Below, one piece after another: positions 9,451 to 50,364 of a stretch of DNA of 64,000 bases (its first letter is position 1; each line of letters begins with the position of its first letter). A model generated the notes under the pieces. That model saw only the letters and a program-made list of their open reading frames with translations, was not told the DNA's origin and made no database searches. Source of the DNA: Caloramator sp. E03 (GTDB lineage Bacteria > Bacillota > Clostridia > Clostridiales > Caloramatoraceae); assembly GCF_006016075.1 (NCBI RefSeq), contig NZ_CP040093.1:558001-622000 (forward strand). Direction: 5' to 3'. Made by a program: the position numbers and the translations under genes.

Positions 9451-10509
9451 TTACACTAAAACTTTATGCACATAAGCAGACGTTGCAGCCTTTAAAAGCC
9501 CTCCATAATAGAGGTAAAACTCAACAACATCTCCAACTTTATAATCCTTTTTAGAATTAGTTACATTGAGTATGGTATGGTCGCTGCTTGCACCTATAAG
9601 CCTTATATCCTCATCAAAGGGGCGAATAAGATTAATATCTATATCCTGCCTTCCCATTGCAACTATTGCTCTTTTCATCATTCCCTTATCTTCAAATACA
9701 GGCTTTCCTCCAAAGGCATCCATACCAATATTTCCAATTGGAACCGATGGCTTTTCTTTAAGCTCAACTATCTGGGCCTTTAAAACAAAAGCATCATCAT
9801 AAAGTCCATCTAACCTCTTTCCAAAGGCTGTCTCTCTTCCAAGAAGAATTGCTTCTCCTACTCTTAAATTATTAATTCCCTTTGGCAAAGTTCCCTTTTC
9901 CACAAGATAAAGACTGCTTGAATTTCCTCCTGATATTATTTCAACATCAAGATTATATTTATCCCCCATATCCTTTGAAATATCAACAAGCTTTGAAAGA
10001 TTAACTTCATCTGGAATAACTCCCCCATAGCAGGTTAAATTAACTCCAAATCCCTTTATTTCAATACCTTTTATTTTTACAGCCTCACCTATGAATTCAT
10101 CTATATTATCTGGCCACACTCCCTCTCTTAAATCACCAAGATCAAGCATTATAATTACATTATGAACTTTTCCTATTCTTTGGGCAGCCTCTCCTAAAAG
10201 TTTTAAGGTTGAAAGTTCTGAGTTTTGGCTGTAATCAGAGTATAATACCACATCATCGACTTCACAATGCATAGGTATTCTTAAAAGCACTTTTTTAGAA
10301 GGAATATCCTTTAACTTTTTAAGATTTTCAATCCTCGAATCAGCAAGCATATCAGCGCCTCCCTTTAGCATTGCCATAGCTGCCAAAGGATTAGCACAGA
10401 AACACTTCGTTACCCCCCATATTTTAACATTATGTCTTTCACACATTTGTTTTATTATTCTTGTATTATGCTCAAGCTTTTTAAGATTTATCTCTAATCT
10501 TGGATACAT
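9451..10509 (-). CDS. orr: Ornithine racemase (PLP-dependent)
   Basis: This enzyme interconverts L- and D-ornithine, supplying the D-isomer used by ornithine 4,5-aminomutase. It has the alanine racemase N-terminal barrel; the PLP lysine is K35 in 'WGVTKCFCANP'. Further conserved segments are 'LDLGDLREGVWPD' and 'ISGGNSSSLYLVEKG'. Its 352 residues fit known Orr proteins. ATG 10509 follows GGAGAGG; a TTG at 10536, overlapping the preceding gene, is the less likely start. It is the last gene of the ornithine operon and is followed by a strong terminator. Its membership of that operon makes ornithine, rather than alanine, the substrate. Confidence 0.92.
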   Translation of the reverse strand: MYPRLEINLKKLEHNTRIIKQMCERHNVKIWGVTKCFCANPLAAMAMLKGGADMLADSRIENLKKLKDIPSKKVLLRIPMHCEVDDVVLYSDYSQNSELSTLKLLGEAAQRIGKVHNVIIMLDLGDLREGVWPDNIDEFIGEAVKIKGIEIKGFGVNLTCYGGVIPDEVNLSKLVDISKDMGDKYNLDVEIISGGNSSSLYLVEKGTLPKGINNLRVGEAILLGRETAFGKRLDGLYDDAFVLKAQIVELKEKPSVPIGNIGMDAFGGKPVFEDKGMMKRAIVAMGRQDIDINLIRPFDEDIRLIGASSDHTILNVTNSKKDYKVGDVVEFYLYYGGLLKAATSAYVHKVLV

Positions 10510-10525
10510 GTTATCCTCTCCATTG

Positions 10526-11881
10526 CTAAATTTCAAGACTTGCCTTTAAAAGTTTTAATGCCGCCTGAGGATACTTTTTCGAGAGCACTCCAAGAGATGC
10601 CATAATATAATGATTATCAACTAAAATTTTTGCCTCTTTAGTTGGGAAAAGCTCCGTTCCTTTTCCTCTTTCAGCAATTTTTTTCATTATATCAACTCTC
10701 CCTGGGAGCCTTGTTAGTGCTCCTCCAGTTCCTATTATATATTTTACCTGAGTTAAATCCTTACCCTCAGCAACACTTTTTCTTCCCGACTCCCCATAGA
10801 GCCTTCTTACCGTACCTGCATGCCTTTTTACTGCAGTTAAAACTGCCTCAAGGGTAAGCTTTTCTACAAATCTTTTTTCCTCATCAGTAATTGGTATAGG
10901 TTTATAATTTTCAATAATAGGCTTTATATCAAAGCCTAGTTCACTTGCAAGTTTTTCCTCTCCAATTCTTGACAGTACATTTTTCATATTTACATATACT
11001 CCAAGGTCGCCCTCAACAGTTCTTTTTGCCTCAGGCTCTGGAGATAATAGAATCCTTGCTATTTCATCAGAATCTTTAGTCACTGAGTGAACATCAGTTG
11101 TAGCTCCCCCAACATCAATAACAATTAAATCACCTATATCTTCCTTTAAAAGTTTTGCAGCCTCCATAACAGCACCAGGTGTTGGAATTATAGGCCCATT
11201 TACCATACTTCTTACCTTCGTCATTCCTGGAGCATGTACTATATGCTCCTCAAAGACACTTTGTATAACTCTTCTGCAGGGTTCAACATTTAAAAGATCA
11301 ACCTTAGGGTAAACATTATCTACTATATAAAGTTTTGAATTATAATCTTTAAATATTTCCTTTATATCCTCATGGTTTTCTATATTACCTGCATAGATTA
11401 CAGGAATTCCAAGGTTTAATGCTGCAATCTCCTCAGCATTATAAAGTGCAGTATCCCTCTCTCCAAAATCAAGGCCACCAGCAATTAATATTATATTAGG
11501 CTTTATATCCTGTATCTTTTTTATATCGCTTCTTCTAAGGCGTCCTGCAGTTACAAGATGAATAATAGCTCCTGCCCCAAGGGCAGCTTCCTTTGCAGCC
11601 TTTGCTGTCATATCATATACAAGTCCATGTACTGTCATCTTTAGACCGCCTGCTGCACTGCTTGATGCAAGAAAATCATCGTATTCAACTTCATCAATAT
11701 TTAAGTTCCTCTTTAAATCCTCAACTGCACCTTTAAGCCCAATGGTTACATCTCCATCAAGAACAGTTGTTGGAGATTGCCCTTGCCCTATAAATACCGG
11801 ATTATCGTTGTGAATGCCTGAAAAGGCATTCACAACCGTTGTAGTGCTTCCAATTTCTGCAACAAGAACATCAACTTTCAT
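10526..11881 (-). CDS. GlmL/MutL-family protein, probable aminomutase reactivating factor
   Basis: This 451-residue protein belongs to the GlmL (MutL) family of ASKHA-fold ATPases found beside B12-dependent mutases. Evidence is the N-terminal phosphate motif 'VAEIGSTTTVVNAF', 'LIAGGLDFGERDTALYNAEEI', the second phosphate motif 'IVIDVGGATTDVHSV' and the adenosine motif 'IIGTGGALTRLPG'. It is not the mismatch-repair MutL. Its position between oraE and orr suggests that it exchanges or reactivates the adenosylcobalamin of OraSE, as proposed for GlmL with glutamate mutase. AGAAGGTG precedes the ATG, 15 bp after the oraE stop. The role is inferred from family and context. Confidence 0.85.
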   Translation of the reverse strand: MKVDVLVAEIGSTTTVVNAFSGIHNDNPVFIGQGQSPTTVLDGDVTIGLKGAVEDLKRNLNIDEVEYDDFLASSSAAGGLKMTVHGLVYDMTAKAAKEAALGAGAIIHLVTAGRLRRSDIKKIQDIKPNIILIAGGLDFGERDTALYNAEEIAALNLGIPVIYAGNIENHEDIKEIFKDYNSKLYIVDNVYPKVDLLNVEPCRRVIQSVFEEHIVHAPGMTKVRSMVNGPIIPTPGAVMEAAKLLKEDIGDLIVIDVGGATTDVHSVTKDSDEIARILLSPEPEAKRTVEGDLGVYVNMKNVLSRIGEEKLASELGFDIKPIIENYKPIPITDEEKRFVEKLTLEAVLTAVKRHAGTVRRLYGESGRKSVAEGKDLTQVKYIIGTGGALTRLPGRVDIMKKIAERGKGTELFPTKEAKILVDNHYIMASLGVLSKKYPQAALKLLKASLEI

Positions 11882-11896
11882 AAATGCACCTTCTAA

Positions 11897-14101
11897 TCAT
11901 TTTAATCCCTTTGATTCAAGTTCTCTTCTCTTTTTAACAAGGAAAGTAGCAACATGAACACCTTTAGTTCCTCTTCCAAAGCCTGCATCAACTCCAGCTT
12001 CAACTGCAAATTCATTTGCAACCTGGGTTCCTCCACAGGCAATTATAATTCTATCCCTTATGCCTTTTTCAATACACAGCTCATGAATTTTCTTCATGTT
12101 TTTATAGTGAATATTATCATGGCTTATTATAGTGCTTGCAAGTATAGCATCAGCATTAGCCTCAATTGCTGCATCAACAAGCTTTTCAACAGGAACTGAA
12201 GTCCCAAGATATATGCACTCTATTCCATATTTCTCTATTCCACCGTGCTTTATATCTATTATTTCTCTTAAACCAACAGAATGTTCATCGTTTCCAACGG
12301 TTCCTGCAACCACCTTCATAGGTCTTCTTTCAATATCTGCCCTTATCTCATCATCGGACATAACCTCAGGCTTTGGAGGAATGTAAAGCTTTGTTGCATC
12401 GATTTCAAAAGGAACTCTTCCCTTTATTTCAACTAAAGTTCCTTCAGCTTCCTGCATGATGTTTTTGTGAACTACTTCAACATCTACAAGACCTAACTTC
12501 TTTCCAATCTCAAGGGCAACTACCTCAGCAGTGCTTTCATCAACAGGAAGAAACATTGTCTGAAGTATATATCCATCTCCTGCCCACTCAACCTCTGGCT
12601 TTACATGCTCCCTGCTATAGTATTTTCTTGACTCATTAAGCCTTACATTTACATTATCCTCTTCATCAAGTTCATCAATATAAACTATTTTCTCTGGCTT
12701 TTCAAAGGTACATCCATCTATTAAATCTGATGGATTCACTATTCCCTCAGGAAGGTTGTTGTATCCAAAATGAGCTGTAACTGGTGCCATATAATCCTTA
12801 TCCCTTGGATATACAGTTCCTGCACCTATTCCACCATCTATTTTTCTAACTATTCCATCTCCGTTTCTTTCAGGATAATATCCAGAATCAACAAAGAATC
12901 CTTCCTCAACAGCCTTAAAATATCCTCCAACCTCTAAAATCTCTTCCATGAAAAGAACTGCTCTCTCTTTTATCTCTCTTGCCTTTTCTTTTAGATAACC
13001 ATCTTTTTTAAGTTCAATCATTTCCATAAGGCCGTCCATTCCGGCAAAGGCCTGTTTTGCTGTACTTACTGCAGCAATGTTGTTGTAATGCCATGGTACG
13101 TTTCTGCCTTCATCAGGAGTTATAGTTGACTGAATATCTGCACTTGTTAAAACTGATGTTAAAATATTTAAAACATGGGTTACCGTAGCTTCCCTGGTAT
13201 CTGATTCAATATATTTTGTATTCATCTGAGCCCTCATTCTATATTCATGGAAAAAGTCTCTTAAAGCTACAGCATAGGGTAAGTCCAGCCTTAAACAAGG
13301 TGCAGGAGGGGCTGTTGGTGGAACTGTTGAAAGGCAGATATTTTTAGGATCCATACCAACCTTTCTTGAATACATACAATTTATTGCATGCTGAACCATA
13401 AGCTCAGGCATAACCTTCCATGCCTGTCTTGCAGTAGCATTAGCATTATGCGCACCATCTATTTGTGCCATATTAGCCCAAACCATTATTTTTTTTGCTT
13501 CAGCTGCATCTACAAAAGAGCGCACCATATTTACATTTCTATAAAGAACGTTGTACTGTGGATCCTGATGGGCACCATTTACTCCTTCTTCTGCAAACAT
13601 AACAGCAATGTCAGGGCCTGCTTCCCCTGATACATAGGAATGGTAGTTGATTGGGCGGCCAACTTCATCCTCAATCATATCAAGAGCCTTTCTTTGTGCC
13701 CTTACCTGTTTTCTTGTAACCGGAATTCCTCCAATTCCCTGAGGAGTACCCTCAATAAGCCCGTCATAGTGGCTCTGTCCTGCAGTCCTTATAACCATAA
13801 TATGATCTGCACCATGCCATGCAGCCATTCTCATTCTTCTTATATCATCCTCAAACCTTCCTGATGCTATTTCAGTTGTTATAACAGGCTTAGGCTGAGG
13901 ATCAATATTTCCAAAATACTTAGATGAAGGAAGACCATAGCTGTTTTTTAAGGGTTTACTCATATCGTGAAAAGTAAAGGGACCCATCTCAAGATTATCA
14001 ATAGGCTCTCTCCAGTGCCATCCTCTTCTTCTTGGACGATAATGCTCCAAATCCTTTAAAATCTCATCTATATCTATTTTTTCATTTCTTTTAAGTTCCA
14101 T
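11897..14101 (-). CDS. oraE: D-ornithine 4,5-aminomutase, large B12/PLP subunit
   Basis: OraE converts D-ornithine to (2R,4S)-2,4-diaminopentanoate using adenosylcobalamin and PLP. The 734 residues comprise an N-terminal TIM barrel ('HGADHIMVIRTAGQSHYDGL', 'WANMAQIDGAHNANATARQAW') and a C-terminal Rossmann B12 domain. The base-off cobalamin motif DxHxxG is 'DEHSVG', with the axial histidine near residue 607. A lysine eleven residues later (about 618, in 'DIKHGG') corresponds in spacing to the PLP lysine K629 next to H618 of the Clostridium sticklandii enzyme. The start ATG overlaps the oraS stop (TAATG), so the subunits are translationally coupled, with AAAGGAGGTG upstream. Confidence 0.97.
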   Translation of the reverse strand: MELKRNEKIDIDEILKDLEHYRPRRRGWHWREPIDNLEMGPFTFHDMSKPLKNSYGLPSSKYFGNIDPQPKPVITTEIASGRFEDDIRRMRMAAWHGADHIMVIRTAGQSHYDGLIEGTPQGIGGIPVTRKQVRAQRKALDMIEDEVGRPINYHSYVSGEAGPDIAVMFAEEGVNGAHQDPQYNVLYRNVNMVRSFVDAAEAKKIMVWANMAQIDGAHNANATARQAWKVMPELMVQHAINCMYSRKVGMDPKNICLSTVPPTAPPAPCLRLDLPYAVALRDFFHEYRMRAQMNTKYIESDTREATVTHVLNILTSVLTSADIQSTITPDEGRNVPWHYNNIAAVSTAKQAFAGMDGLMEMIELKKDGYLKEKAREIKERAVLFMEEILEVGGYFKAVEEGFFVDSGYYPERNGDGIVRKIDGGIGAGTVYPRDKDYMAPVTAHFGYNNLPEGIVNPSDLIDGCTFEKPEKIVYIDELDEEDNVNVRLNESRKYYSREHVKPEVEWAGDGYILQTMFLPVDESTAEVVALEIGKKLGLVDVEVVHKNIMQEAEGTLVEIKGRVPFEIDATKLYIPPKPEVMSDDEIRADIERRPMKVVAGTVGNDEHSVGLREIIDIKHGGIEKYGIECIYLGTSVPVEKLVDAAIEANADAILASTIISHDNIHYKNMKKIHELCIEKGIRDRIIIACGGTQVANEFAVEAGVDAGFGRGTKGVHVATFLVKKRRELESKGLK

Positions 14102-14472
14102 TACTTTTCACCTCCTTTAAAAATGTTTACTGCTAAGTCCCAATGAAGTCCCTGGGCCATCTCCCGTCCAACTTCCCTATAATCTCTGTTAAGATGCTTT
14201 GATACCTTTAAAACAACATGCCCTGCTCCTTTTCCCATAAGACCTCTGTCTATAGTATTATTTACAATATCCTTTGCTTCAAGGCTTGAAAATCCCATCC
14301 TTAAAAGGATTGACCTTTCAATTGATGGAGTTGTATTGTTTCTTGCCAATTCAACTAAAGGGTCAACTATTTTTTCAGCAAGAGCCCAAAATCTTTGCTC
14401 TAATTCTTCATCGGTAAGATCTTTAAGATGCTGCCTTCTAACTTCAAAATCATCAGCTCTTTTAATAGGCAT
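14101..14472 (-). CDS. oraS: D-ornithine 4,5-aminomutase, small subunit
   Basis: OraS (123 residues) is the small partner of OraE in the heterotetrameric aminomutase. It is all-helical. Segments such as 'LTDEELEQRFWALAEKIVDPL' and 'GLMGKGAGHVVLKVS' are typical of the family. Its stop codon shares a base with the oraE start. AGGAGGGGG precedes its ATG, 10 bp after the end of ortB. It has no catalytic residues of its own that I can identify; in known enzymes it stabilises the large subunit. Confidence 0.95.
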   Translation of the reverse strand: MPIKRADDFEVRRQHLKDLTDEELEQRFWALAEKIVDPLVELARNNTTPSIERSILLRMGFSSLEAKDIVNNTIDRGLMGKGAGHVVLKVSKHLNRDYREVGREMAQGLHWDLAVNIFKGGEK

Positions 14473-14482
14473 AATCCCCCTC

Positions 14483-15901
14483 CTATTTTTTTATTCCAAG
14501 TTCATCTAATACCGATTCTACAAATTTTCTATTTGTTCTTGTTTCTAATGCTAAAAATTCAATATCTTTATCATTTACACAATCTACCTTTGCCCTATTT
14601 ATTGCATTTTTTATATATGATTTTCTCATTTTATCCATATCTGCATGTCTAACTTTAATAAGGCTTGGATGCTCAGGAAGTATTATGTTAGTTCCAGGTA
14701 TTTCCTCATCAGGATTCCCAAATTTAACTTCAACTCCATTTTTCTTTGCAAAGGAAAGCTGTGCTAAAGGATGCTTTCCTGCCCCTGTATATTCAGTTTC
14801 CTGAATAACTATGATTTTATCTTCATCCATCTGTTGTGCTAATGCAAAGGCAGCAGTAAGGGATGTATTTCCTGCAGGGCCTCTCTCCAGTCCCTCAAGC
14901 TGCGATAATGCTTCAGTTATATAAAATACCTCACCCTGTTTTACTAAAAGATAATCTTCCATATATCTTAATGCCCTTGCCGCACTTCTTGGAACATCAG
15001 AATGATCAGGGTCAGTGGTGTATGGAACTCCAAAGCCTGTGTGCCCAGTTGTAAAAGATTTTCTGTTAAAGGCTTTATCTGATGCCATATGAAGTCCAGT
15101 TAAATCAACACTAACACCTATTACCTTTGTATTTACAGCCCCAGCTTTAATAAGACCTCTTGCTGTACCTGTTAAGTTTCCACCTCCTGCATGGGTTGCA
15201 ACTACTACATCAGGATCATGTCCTATCATCTCTCTGCACTGAATGGCTATTTCGTATCCTAAAGTTTCAACCCCTGCAATTCCAAAGGTAGAATAAAGTG
15301 AAGCATTAAAATATCCAGTTTCCTCAAGTATTCTAAGGAAGGTGTAGAAAAGCTCAGGGCCAACCGTTAGCTGTACAACCTCAGCACCAAGGCATTCGCA
15401 CTTTCTCTGTTTTTCAAGTATTTCAGGCTGACCAATCTTTCTTGAATCATAGCACTCCTGAACTATAATGCAGTCTAAGTTTCTCATAGCAGCCTGTGAT
15501 GCAACTGCTGCACCATAGTTTCCGCTGGTTGCAGCAACAACTCCCTTATAGCCAAGCTTTTTTGCTATATACACAGAAACAGAAGCTCTTCTGTCTTTAA
15601 AACTTCCTGAAGGATTGCATGCTTCATCCTTTACAAATATTCTTGCGCCTTTACCTTTAGGTGAAATCTTTCTAACAAGCTCTGTTAAATTTTTAAGCTC
15701 TAAAAGAGGAGTATTTCCAACTCCAGTTTCTCTTTGAATTTTCATAATATATGAAATTCCAAAGCCTATATCCCTCATCATTTTTTCATAATCAAAGGCA
15801 ATGCCTCCGCTTTCATATATGGAGTAATCCATTCCAAGGGCTTTTTTCATTATTTCATTTTTTCTATTCATTACTGCATCAAAACTTACATCAACTTTCA
15901 T
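14483..15901 (-). CDS. ortB: 2-amino-4-oxopentanoate thiolase, beta (PLP) subunit
   Basis: OrtB, with OrtA, cleaves 2-amino-4-oxopentanoate with CoA to acetyl-CoA and D-alanine, the last step of oxidative ornithine breakdown. The 472-residue protein is a fold-type II PLP enzyme. The PLP lysine is K102 in 'NPSGSFKDRRAS', followed by 'AATSGNYGAAVA' and the glycine-rich cup 'ATHAGGGNLTGTARG'. Its ATG overlaps the ortA stop by four bases (ATGA), indicating coupled translation. The distant resemblance to threonine synthase is explained by the shared fold. The operon context makes the assignment firm. Confidence 0.95.
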   Translation of the reverse strand: MKVDVSFDAVMNRKNEIMKKALGMDYSIYESGGIAFDYEKMMRDIGFGISYIMKIQRETGVGNTPLLELKNLTELVRKISPKGKGARIFVKDEACNPSGSFKDRRASVSVYIAKKLGYKGVVAATSGNYGAAVASQAAMRNLDCIIVQECYDSRKIGQPEILEKQRKCECLGAEVVQLTVGPELFYTFLRILEETGYFNASLYSTFGIAGVETLGYEIAIQCREMIGHDPDVVVATHAGGGNLTGTARGLIKAGAVNTKVIGVSVDLTGLHMASDKAFNRKSFTTGHTGFGVPYTTDPDHSDVPRSAARALRYMEDYLLVKQGEVFYITEALSQLEGLERGPAGNTSLTAAFALAQQMDEDKIIVIQETEYTGAGKHPLAQLSFAKKNGVEVKFGNPDEEIPGTNIILPEHPSLIKVRHADMDKMRKSYIKNAINRAKVDCVNDKDIEFLALETRTNRKFVESVLDELGIKK

Positions 15902-16209
15902 TTATTGTCACCGCCCTTTAAAATGCCCCTTAGCTGTTTTCCAATTTTTAATAACTCAGGAACATATTCATCTCCAAATCCATATTCATACCTTGGATTT
16001 ATTAAAACAAGTTCACCCTTAACTATTCTTCCTGTTAAAGTTGTAATCTCAACCTCATCATAAAGATTAGCATCATGATTTAAAAATCCCTTTACCCAAA
16101 GCTCGAGAGGAACCTTCTTTGTATCCTCAGGAAGCTTTCCCGTTCTTTCCTCTGGTTTTAAAACTATCTGATGTATCTGTACCCAGTCACCTTTTTTTGC
16201 ATCAGACAT
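15898..16209 (-). CDS. ortA: 2-amino-4-oxopentanoate thiolase, alpha subunit
   Basis: OrtA (103 residues) is the small subunit of the thiolase. It is beta-rich and starts 'GDWVQIHQIVLKPEERTGKLPEDT'. A C-terminal 'INPRYEYGFGDEYVPELLKIG' segment is characteristic of the family. GAGGTG precedes the ATG, 4 bp after the ord stop. It has no PLP site; its role with OrtB is known from the Clostridium sticklandii enzyme. Confidence 0.95.
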   Translation of the reverse strand: MSDAKKGDWVQIHQIVLKPEERTGKLPEDTKKVPLELWVKGFLNHDANLYDEVEITTLTGRIVKGELVLINPRYEYGFGDEYVPELLKIGKQLRGILKGGDNK

Positions 16210-16213
16210 TATA

Positions 16214-17254
16214 TCACCTCTTTATATGATTCCTTACATCATCCATAAATACATGTGGTATTGGAAGATCCTTCATTGTAACAAGACCTGGCTTTGCATT
16301 TATAACATGGGGAATCATATTAACAGCTGTTGCAATGGTCCCTATTCCTCCAGGAGTTTCAGGTTTTATGCAAAGGTTGATGTTTGGATCTCCTTCAATC
16401 CATATATAATCACCTGTTTCAATGTTTTCAAGTTCTGGATGTATCTGCTGTGGATGCTCAAGTATAATTACCGGCTCTCCATTTTTAAGTCCATAGCCAC
16501 AGTGTCTGCATCCTGCAACCATACCTGGCTCTACAACAACATCCTTAGTTTCTCTATGAACCTTTGATATAATTGGCTCTCTTGTCTGTTTTACCTCATC
16601 GATTTCAATTCCAAGAGCATCTGCAATCATTGGTATTGATTCTTCAAAGCCAACATGTCCATAAATTGATCCGTCTTCAATTCCCTTCATAAACTGCTCA
16701 TAAGTTGTACCAACGCCCTGCTCAACCATAACTGTCTTTCCAAAGGGTGATAAGTCATTTATTCTTGCTGCTCTTATCTTCTTTACACTTCTACATGCTG
16801 CAGTTAAAGTTATTATTAAAGTATCCAGTACAAACCCAGGGTTTACTCCTGTTCCAAGTATTGTAACTCCGTTTTCCTTTGCAAGTCTATCCATCTCTTT
16901 TGACATTTCAGGAGCAACCTTATAAGGATATGCCATCTCTTCAGCAATAGTTATAACGTTCATCTTATTAGAAACTATTAATTTAATAGGTTCAAATACT
17001 CCTTCGACAAAAGAATCAATTGAAAGTAAAACCACATCTGCCTTTGTTTCTTCTAAAACTTTCTTGGCATTAGTTGATACTTTTACATTAAGCCTTCTTC
17101 CAATTTCAAGGTAATCTCCAAGATCCATTCCTTCTTTGCTTTGATTTCTTATTATACCCCCTACAATTTCAAAGCCTTCCTTTTCAAGAATCATTTTTGC
17201 CATGCCGCCTCCCATGTTGCCAATACCCCAAAGTATTACTTTAATTTTATCCAT
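16214..17254 (-). CDS. ord: 2,4-diaminopentanoate dehydrogenase
   Basis: Ord oxidatively deaminates 2,4-diaminopentanoate to 2-amino-4-oxopentanoate with NAD(P)+. The 346-residue protein has an N-terminal Rossmann fold ('VILWGIGNMGGGMAKMILEKEG') and resembles the dihydrodipicolinate reductase-like dehydrogenase family. The conserved central segment 'GTGVNPGFVLDTLIITLTAACRSVKKI' follows. GGAGGG precedes the ATG. It is the first gene of the ornithine operon (ord-ortA-ortB-oraS-oraE-glmL-like-orr), with a sigma-54 promoter 40 bp upstream. Confidence 0.96.
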   Translation of the reverse strand: MDKIKVILWGIGNMGGGMAKMILEKEGFEIVGGIIRNQSKEGMDLGDYLEIGRRLNVKVSTNAKKVLEETKADVVLLSIDSFVEGVFEPIKLIVSNKMNVITIAEEMAYPYKVAPEMSKEMDRLAKENGVTILGTGVNPGFVLDTLIITLTAACRSVKKIRAARINDLSPFGKTVMVEQGVGTTYEQFMKGIEDGSIYGHVGFEESIPMIADALGIEIDEVKQTREPIISKVHRETKDVVVEPGMVAGCRHCGYGLKNGEPVIILEHPQQIHPELENIETGDYIWIEGDPNINLCIKPETPGGIGTIATAVNMIPHVINAKPGLVTMKDLPIPHVFMDDVRNHIKR

Positions 17255-17292
17255 ATATTAACCCTCCAAAATTAATTTTTTACATATTTTTT

Positions 17293-17308
17293 TGCATAAA
17301 TCATGCCA
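17293..17308 (-). promoter_or_regulatory. Sigma-54 (-24/-12) promoter of the ornithine operon
   Basis: On the minus strand TGGCATG-N4-ATGCA matches the consensus TGGCACG-N4-TTGCA at all key positions. The invariant GG (17307-17306) and GC (17295-17294) are exactly 12 bp apart. Transcription would start near 17282, about 28 bp before the ord ATG. A sigma-54 activator gene lies directly upstream. Confidence 0.85.
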
Positions 17309-17447
17309 TAATTTTTATAGGAATTTTAAATTTCAATTTATATATATACATAAATTTATAACATACTGCATTTTTATTATTAATTTTTATTCTTTTATGA
17401 TTATTCTTAATCTTAAGCGCAATTATTTTTGCAGAATGCTATATGAG

Positions 17448-17465
17448 TATATAAGCTTATATACA
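17448..17465. promoter_or_regulatory. Perfect 18-bp palindrome, candidate enhancer (UAS) of the ornithine operon
   Basis: The half-site GTATATAAG is followed directly by its reverse complement. The site lies about 150 bp upstream of the sigma-54 promoter, a usual distance for the upstream activating site of an enhancer-binding protein. The Fis-type helix-turn-helix protein encoded beside it is the obvious candidate to bind. AT-richness means that chance cannot be excluded. Confidence 0.5.
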
Positions 17466-17507
17466 AAAAAAATGCACCCATGCAATTTTTTTTGCATAAG
17501 GGTGCAA
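17466..17507 (-). terminator. Two-tier terminator of the sigma-54 activator gene
   Basis: On the minus strand an outer stem (TGCACCC/GGGTGCA) encloses an inner stem (ATGCAA/TTGCAT), followed by eight T. It lies directly after the activator gene. It separates that gene from the enhancer palindrome and operon promoter, so the ornithine operon is insulated from read-through. Confidence 0.85.
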
Positions 17508-50250: not shown

Positions 50251-50280
50251 AACAGCCCTCTTTTCTTCACATTACAATAT

Positions 50281-50304
50281 ATGGCTGGTAATATTACCAG
50301 CCAT
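50281..50304. repeat. Perfect 24-bp palindrome between apt and relA
   Basis: ATGGCTGGTAAT is followed by its exact reverse complement. A T-run is present only on the plus-strand side, opposite to the direction of apt and relA. It may still be a weak terminator or processing hairpin between the two genes, or an operator for relA. Confidence 0.6.
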
Positions 50305-50364
50305 ATTTTTTATTAATTATATATTAATATTAAAAACTTTGCAATTGTTTTTCGACATAATAAA

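Follow-up and report, generated by a model that had tools for sequence, protein, structure and literature searches.

The ornithine fermentation operon of Caloramator sp. E03 appears to be served by an enhancer that lies partly inside the transcription terminator of its own activator gene. We consider it very likely that the sigma-54 activator OrdR binds two dyads upstream of ord, loops to the sigma-54 ord promoter and opens it, and that the distal dyad doubles as the apex of the ordR terminator. This reading comes from a comparison of the 64,000-nt stretch of DNA analysed here (the window; the genome scanned is a 2.98 Mb contig) with a set of 66 non-redundant loci, 63 of them found through ord and three through the published Clostridioides difficile promoter letters. 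The loci share descent, so that counts made across them are not independent.

Organization of the ornithine module

The genes ord-ortA-ortB-oraS-oraE-or4-orr run along the minus strand from 17254 down to 9451 and make up the oxidative ornithine pathway (Table 1). Judged by Ord, the closest relatives belong to Caloramator, the protein being 95% identical to that of C. quimbayensis. Upstream of the operon in the direction of transcription and on the same strand lies ordR, which starts 26 bases after a cinA-type gene (family assigned by profile). Its product contains PF00158 (1.5e-64), PF02954 (HTH_8; 7.5e-13) and PAS_9 (6.5e-9) domains, bearing out the PAS-AAA+-Fis activator that the initial annotation had placed beside the operon.

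The exact C. difficile ord promoter is present in three of the 71 genomes searched, which their sequences suggest we may call Clostridioides-type. At one of these loci (L112) the OrdR protein is 49% identical to the window's over 441 columns, and when it is searched in the window's genome the window gene comes first at 411 bits, with the runner-up at 260 bits; by this comparison the window activator is OrdR in the sense of PMC6615313. OrdR/sigma-54 control was predicted in five species by that study (Nie 2019), and OrdR/sigma-54/ord regulation is also in print for C. difficile CD0441-CD0442 (PMC7438776). A sigma-54 module with a PAS-containing enhancer-binding protein that drives ornithine fermentation, as first annotated, is well supported and had already been predicted for relatives under the name OrdR: the pathway, the promoter class, the activator and the existence of an OrdR UAS motif are known, the scheme as a prediction. 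The module is less self-contained than had been proposed. Activator, promoter and operon do sit together, but the only sigma-54 gene found in the genome lies elsewhere (C1:2866642).

The usual sigma-54 contact loop of enhancer-binding proteins is GAFTGA. Most OrdR proteins have GGFTGA or GSFTGA instead: among 40 OrdR loci the loop reads GGFTGA in 17, GSFTGA in 10 and GAFTGA in two, and was not found in 11, the window copy being of the GSFTGA type. At the locus of Caloramator sp. mosi_1 (L013), ordR matched in fragments only and the terminator-borne site lies ~200 bp farther from the promoter than in relatives; this looks like a decaying module.

Table 1 Positions of the ornithine module and its control elements in the window
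Feature	Position	Strand	Basis
orr, ornithine racemase	9451..10536	-	NF040742
or-4, GlmL-related ornithine degradation protein	10526..11881	-	NF040744
oraE	11897..14101	-	NF040743
oraS, D-ornithine 4,5-aminomutase small subunit	14101..14472	-	PF16552
ortB	14483..15901	-	NF040741
ortA	15898..16209	-	NF040739
ord, 2,4-diaminopentanoate dehydrogenase, first gene of the operon	16214..17254	-	NF040740, above cut-off
Sigma-54 (-24/-12) promoter of the ord operon, TGGCATGATTTATGCA	17293..17308	-	Sequence match, conservation, C. difficile parallel
Proximal candidate OrdR site (UAS), TGCAAAAATAATTGCG, one mismatch to GCAAA-N4-TTTGC, outside the terminator hairpin	17418..17433	-	
Distal candidate OrdR site (UAS), TGCAAAAAAAATTGCA, one core mismatch, apex of the ordR terminator	17481..17496	-	
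Predicted intrinsic terminator of ordR, hairpin 17473-17506 and T tail 17465-17472 (8 T)	17465..17506	-	
ordR, PAS-AAA+-Fis sigma-54 activator, 463 aa, GSFTGA loop	17516..18907	-	Translation, Pfam, OrdR comparison

The sigma-54 promoter of ord

A sigma-54 promoter with the 12-bp GG-GC spacing originally reported does precede ord, read from 17308 to 17293. Its letters alone are weak evidence, since the pattern TGGCAYNNNNNWTGCW, which matches once in the window (at the ord promoter; 0.32 matches expected), occurs at least once in 30 of 100 shuffled windows. It is the position and the conservation that make the promoter convincing: a sigma-54 promoter-like site lies before ord at 55 of the 66 loci, and at 39 of the 40 where the activator is directly upstream. 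Set against a TGGCAY-N5-TTGCW-like context, the window promoter has its GG and GC 12 apart and departs once, with ATGC for TTGC, which is why a genome scan for TTGC-type sigma-54 sites returned nine places and the ord promoter was not among them. The same departure is found in the published C. difficile ord promoter, TTGGCACGATTTATGCTTT, whose 5' end was mapped (Table 4, PMC7438776), and the two promoters have GATTTATGC in common. One published observation counts against sigma-54 control, in that the C. difficile ord operon was unchanged in a sigL mutant grown in TY medium (NR in the same table); for most such unchanged genes the authors of PMC7438776 suggest the absence of inducer. Between the sites described below and the -24 element, at about 17335-17350, the stretch TGTATATATATAAATT is identical in three Caloramator species and is possibly a bend or an additional binding site.

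A conserved dyad upstream of ord

We counted all 5-letter dyads with spacers of 0-12 in the 63 ord upstream regions and compared the counts with those in 30 shuffle sets. GCAAA-N4-TTTGC ranked first, occurring in 44 of the 63 regions where 0.1 were expected, and the top count reached by any dyad in the shuffle sets was 9. The two copies in the window each contain one mismatch and are not among the 44; that both are one base off the core counts against them as candidate sites. Across the 66 loci, a promoter and a site occur together at 51, a promoter only at four, a site only at two and neither at nine. For 72 sites at ordR-adjacent loci, the distance between the centre of the site and the beginning of the -24 element has a median of 137 and a range of 57-259, and PMC6615313 places most clostridial UAS sites 100-250 bp away. 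The same source, which treats 39 groups of enhancer-binding proteins, ascribes to OrdR a distinct UAS motif of its own and to many operons multiple UAS sites; the letters of GCAAA-N4-TTTGC are perhaps already contained in its Fig. 3 and Table S3.

By itself the site lacks specificity, because its one-mismatch core has many genomic matches (288 forward and 240 reverse, compared with 22 and 16 in the reversed control). Specificity comes from its spacing to the promoter: a site followed after 90..120 bp by the promoter occurs once in the genome, at ord, and is absent in the reversed control. On these sequence grounds GCAAA-N4-TTTGC is probably the OrdR binding site.

Alternatives to OrdR binding at the dyad

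The initial annotation had assigned the role of enhancer to a different element, a perfect 18-bp palindrome to which the activator would bind. The palindrome exists (GTATATAAGCTTATATAC); it is perfect and intergenic and lies 139-156 bp above the -24 element, at 17447-17464, one base to the left of the 17448-17465 first given. Aligned with both same-genus relatives (L009 and L010; 95% identical Ord), it is broken, while the dyads and the promoter's GG and GC are kept. Of the two elements whose conservation among ornithine-degrading Clostridia the initial annotation had proposed to check, the promoter held up (the 39 of 40 ordR-adjacent loci given above) and the palindrome fails within its own genus. 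It is also near chance level. Twenty shuffled windows contain 10 perfect palindromes of at least 18 bp (0 to 2 each, ~0.5 per window) and the real window two, and when the 261-bp intergenic region, which has 20% GC, was shuffled 5000 times, 123 of the shuffles had a perfect palindrome of that kind. Dyads of the TATAT/ATATA type are found in 5-6 of the 63 ord upstream regions, inside the 5-9 that some dyad reaches in the shuffle sets. With no conservation, a near-chance frequency and a different dyad strongly conserved at the expected distance, we rejected the palindrome, and that it is the activator's enhancer seems hardly credible. Elsewhere in the window, at 50279-50306, lies a longer perfect palindrome of 28 bp, ATATGGCTGGTAATATTACCAGCCATAT.

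The dyad might instead belong to another regulator and merely travel with ordR, given that its assignment to OrdR is read from sequence and that the main text of PMC6615313 describes the OrdR motif just as "distinct". What bears on this are the 13 of 66 loci that have no site before ord. For seven of these 13 the genome was searched for OrdR. In five of the seven genomes an OrdR match (425-448 bits, 48-51% identity) lies on the strand of ord, ~7 kb upstream of it; the other two lack such a match, with none at E 1e-60 in one and a best score of 297 bits in the other. The prediction that the interval after the distant OrdR gene should hold the dyad and a sigma-54 promoter came true in all five, with at most one mismatch in the dyad and an exact copy in four, and the gene after that interval is ortA-like by eye. 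Six second-rank OrdR-like matches above 350 bits from the same search also have promoters, and the dyad is present at none of the six. The best of these paralogues scores 428 bits, inside the OrdR range of the five genomes, so score alone cannot split orthologue from paralogue; linkage to ord does, and orthology in these five out-of-sample genomes rests on that linkage as well as on score. Since the dyad follows ordR even when ord is ~7 kb away and is missing beside the paralogues, it goes with the ornithine activator and not with the whole protein family, and we regard its ownership by another regulator as very improbable. Four of the six second-rank matches precede a gene that seems to resemble kdd, the lysine-fermentation dehydrogenase; at L160, L161, L162 and L164 the OrdR-like paralogue before such a gene has a sigma-54 promoter and no OrdR site.

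A candidate OrdR site inside the predicted ordR terminator

The predicted ordR terminator hairpin has a folding energy of -17.9 kcal/mol (z -3.5), a stability reached by 0 of 200 shuffles, and a separate pattern scan agrees with the call. A hairpin is called on the plus strand too, and the terminator is possibly bidirectional. The initial annotation had described a strong terminator that separates the activator gene from the promoter; the hairpin and T tail are indeed predicted, but the element is more than a separator: one likely site of the pair lies within it. Terminator-like hairpins were called 67 times in the window, and the core is contained in just two of these calls, which coincide at ordR on opposite strands.

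This arrangement recurs. Of the 40 loci where ordR is the gene directly upstream, all but one (39) have the site, which at 33 of the 39 lies inside a called terminator hairpin. When the sites were kept and their flanks shuffled, 8.2 such overlaps were expected; when the terminators were kept and the sites placed randomly, 10.2 were expected among the 35 loci with both features and the maximum in 5000 simulations was 20, compared with 33 of 35 observed. Overlap was not called at six of the 39 (L010, L016, L026, L027, L062 and L078), although at L010 and L016 a hairpin is present at the site but falls below the caller's core or T-tract threshold. With a non-adjacent activator, overlap is seen at one of six loci (0.7 expected), and with no activator in the fetched stretch at three of the eight loci that have a site (0.7 expected). 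Where ordR precedes the ortA-like gene there is none in five, and four of those five have another terminator-like hairpin. By our own tally of taxonomic labels, the loci with overlap span at least nine families of the class.

Two geometries are found. At 22 loci one site lies within the hairpin, usually at its apex, and at 11 loci there are two or more sites within it, usually two, 20-24 bp apart, forming the arms. In the three Clostridioides-type genomes a single exact site, AGCAAAAT(A/G)TTTTGCT, is itself the hairpin before the T tract. The stem outside the core was compared between embedded and bare sites, and the N4 letters between tandem arms; both sets of figures are descriptive, because the sets were chosen after the sites had been seen and the loci are related. 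In the embedded set of 21 single sites, the six positions immediately flanking the core form pairs (counting G-U) in 18-21 cases each, and a position shows as many as six pair types; among 13 bare sites the same positions are paired in 4 to 8 only, both lists having been picked with the sites in view. In tandem arms the N4 letters are complementary at 81 of 132 places; with arms taken from different loci the figure is 56.4 (sd 5.6), and 81 was reached in 0 of 2000 such re-pairings. This comparison used 37 pair rows, 33 after dropping identical pairs, and admits loci without a called terminator and pairs of which one site has as many as two mismatches. The outer-stem pairing and the N4 complementarity indicate that structure has been kept beyond the motif, and the motif beyond the structure. 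A conserved core within a co-varying outer stem can thus be read directly from the sequences, as can the promoter, the sites, the hairpin and their conservation.

A literature search, mostly of titles and abstracts, returned no description of a sigma-54 UAS inside the terminator of its activator, and the words "terminator", "hairpin" and "overlap" are absent from the main text of PMC6615313. What is new relative to the literature found is an enhancer and a terminator as one element, with OrdR binding, termination and any coupling between the two as its putative activities.

PrdR and other activators

A second activator in the same genome has a comparable layout. Its PrdR (853 bits to NF041552; prdC- and prdA-like frames then follow, by eye) is associated with three TGTC-N8-GACA sites, the middle one of which is the apex of the PrdR terminator. 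This type of site has been described independently, since it fits the PrdR UAS class TGT-N10-12-ACA of PMC6615313. A set of 30 loci, less two without an activator frame, one duplicate, five without a promoter call and one with a promoter and no site, left 21 loci, PrdR or PrdR-like, that have both a promoter and a site. Using a terminator hairpin threshold of -9 kcal/mol, overlap was found in nine of the 21 (2.6 expected) and in five of the 10 PrdR loci over the family cut-off; it is absent in 12 of the 21, both same-genus relatives included. The site at L125 lies in a hairpin of -8.5 kcal/mol, just under the threshold, and two loci without a promoter call (L134 and L135) have TGT/ACA-type sites in hairpin arms and were left out of the count.

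Generality within the window's genome was evaluated at six further activator regions (L117-L122). L117, that of PrdR, has the overlap. L119, with a target that is alcohol-dehydrogenase-like by eye, has TGT/ACA-type pairs that are all outside the terminator; L118 and L120 have no terminator call; at L121 a terminator was called, a sigma-54 promoter was not, and the single TGT/ACA-type match does not fall within the terminator; and at L122 activator and promoter are divergent. The remaining activators of this genome do not clearly display overlap. At L165 the apex of an activator-gene terminator is a 16-bp palindrome, TGACAGATTTCTGTCA, which may be a third example of a terminator-borne site.

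Discussion

In the mechanism that we infer, OrdR would bind two 16-bp sites, (T/A/C)GCAAA-N4-TTTGC(A/T/G), centred ~118 and 181 bp upstream of where the -24 element begins. Bound OrdR would then loop to the closed sigma-54 polymerase and open the promoter, switching on ord-ortA-ortB-oraS-oraE-or4-orr in the presence of a signal that is likely to be ornithine or a product. The distal site would serve as enhancer in the form of duplex DNA and as terminator in the form of RNA. The most likely use of this arrangement would be insulation: cinA-ordR transcription would end at the enhancer, sparing the proximal site and the sigma-54 promoter from polymerase run-over. A palindromic activator site beside a T tract probably needs little to become a terminator, in keeping with an overlap that has appeared repeatedly and in two geometries.

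The overlap may also be without function in itself. A palindromic site bound by OrdR could have come to terminate transcription by chance, through lying beside a T tract, and selection for compactness could then have kept it. The lineage-specific outer stems and the two geometries do look like recruitment, and loci with a separate terminator manage without overlap; nothing decisive stands against this account, which differs from our favoured one only in denying that shielding of the enhancer and promoter is useful, and we put it a little short of an even chance. The overlap might, at the other extreme, actively couple the two functions, OrdR bound at the terminator acting as a roadblock or a modifier of termination and so linking its occupancy to the ordR 3' end and to read-through into ord. 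At most ordR-adjacent loci the site does coincide with the place where termination is predicted, and roadblocking by CcpA has been proposed at B. subtilis rocG (PMC4348106), but termination past the stop codon would hardly change the level of OrdR protein, and we think such coupling unlikely. A broader proposal takes in OrdR and PrdR together: terminator-embedded enhancers would be a feature that selection has favoured repeatedly in clostridial sigma-54 modules, coupling enhancer occupancy to the end of the activator transcript (by insulation, roadblock or feedback), and would have arisen with different motifs for at least these two activators. We offer this tentatively, as a less likely reading.

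For OrdR itself, the preferred reading of two dyads with one in the terminator offers a binding sequence that can now be tested, in a pathway that is linked to C. difficile colonization in the title of PMC8803604. It also suggests that one DNA stretch can be enhancer and terminator in many Clostridia, and clostridial terminators may therefore hide regulatory sites. Reporter fusions or annotations cut at the terminator would lose part of the enhancer.

The module matches the OrdR of Nie 2019 (PMC6615313) and C. difficile CD0441-CD0442 (PMC7438776) in its orthologous activator, its target operon ord-ortAB-oraSE-orr and its promoter class. RocR of Bacillus subtilis resembles OrdR by its described function, the SigL-dependent activation of arginine/ornithine catabolism with ornithine or citrulline (PMC4348106), but involves other genes. 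The PrdR/sigma-54/prd system shares an activator terminator that holds a UAS-like site, TGTC-N8-GACA, and differs in its motif, in its CBS-PAS sensor and in the lower share of overlapping loci (9/21). The nearest precedent found for the overlap of enhancer and terminator comes from Neisseria and Pasteurellaceae, whose DNA uptake signals have been recruited as terminators (Kingsford 2007, PMC1852404); there, elements with another DNA-level job likewise form terminator hairpins and close complementary copies likewise make up the hairpin arms. Uptake signals are genome-wide, whereas the ord case concerns the likely enhancer of one operon within the terminator of its own activator.
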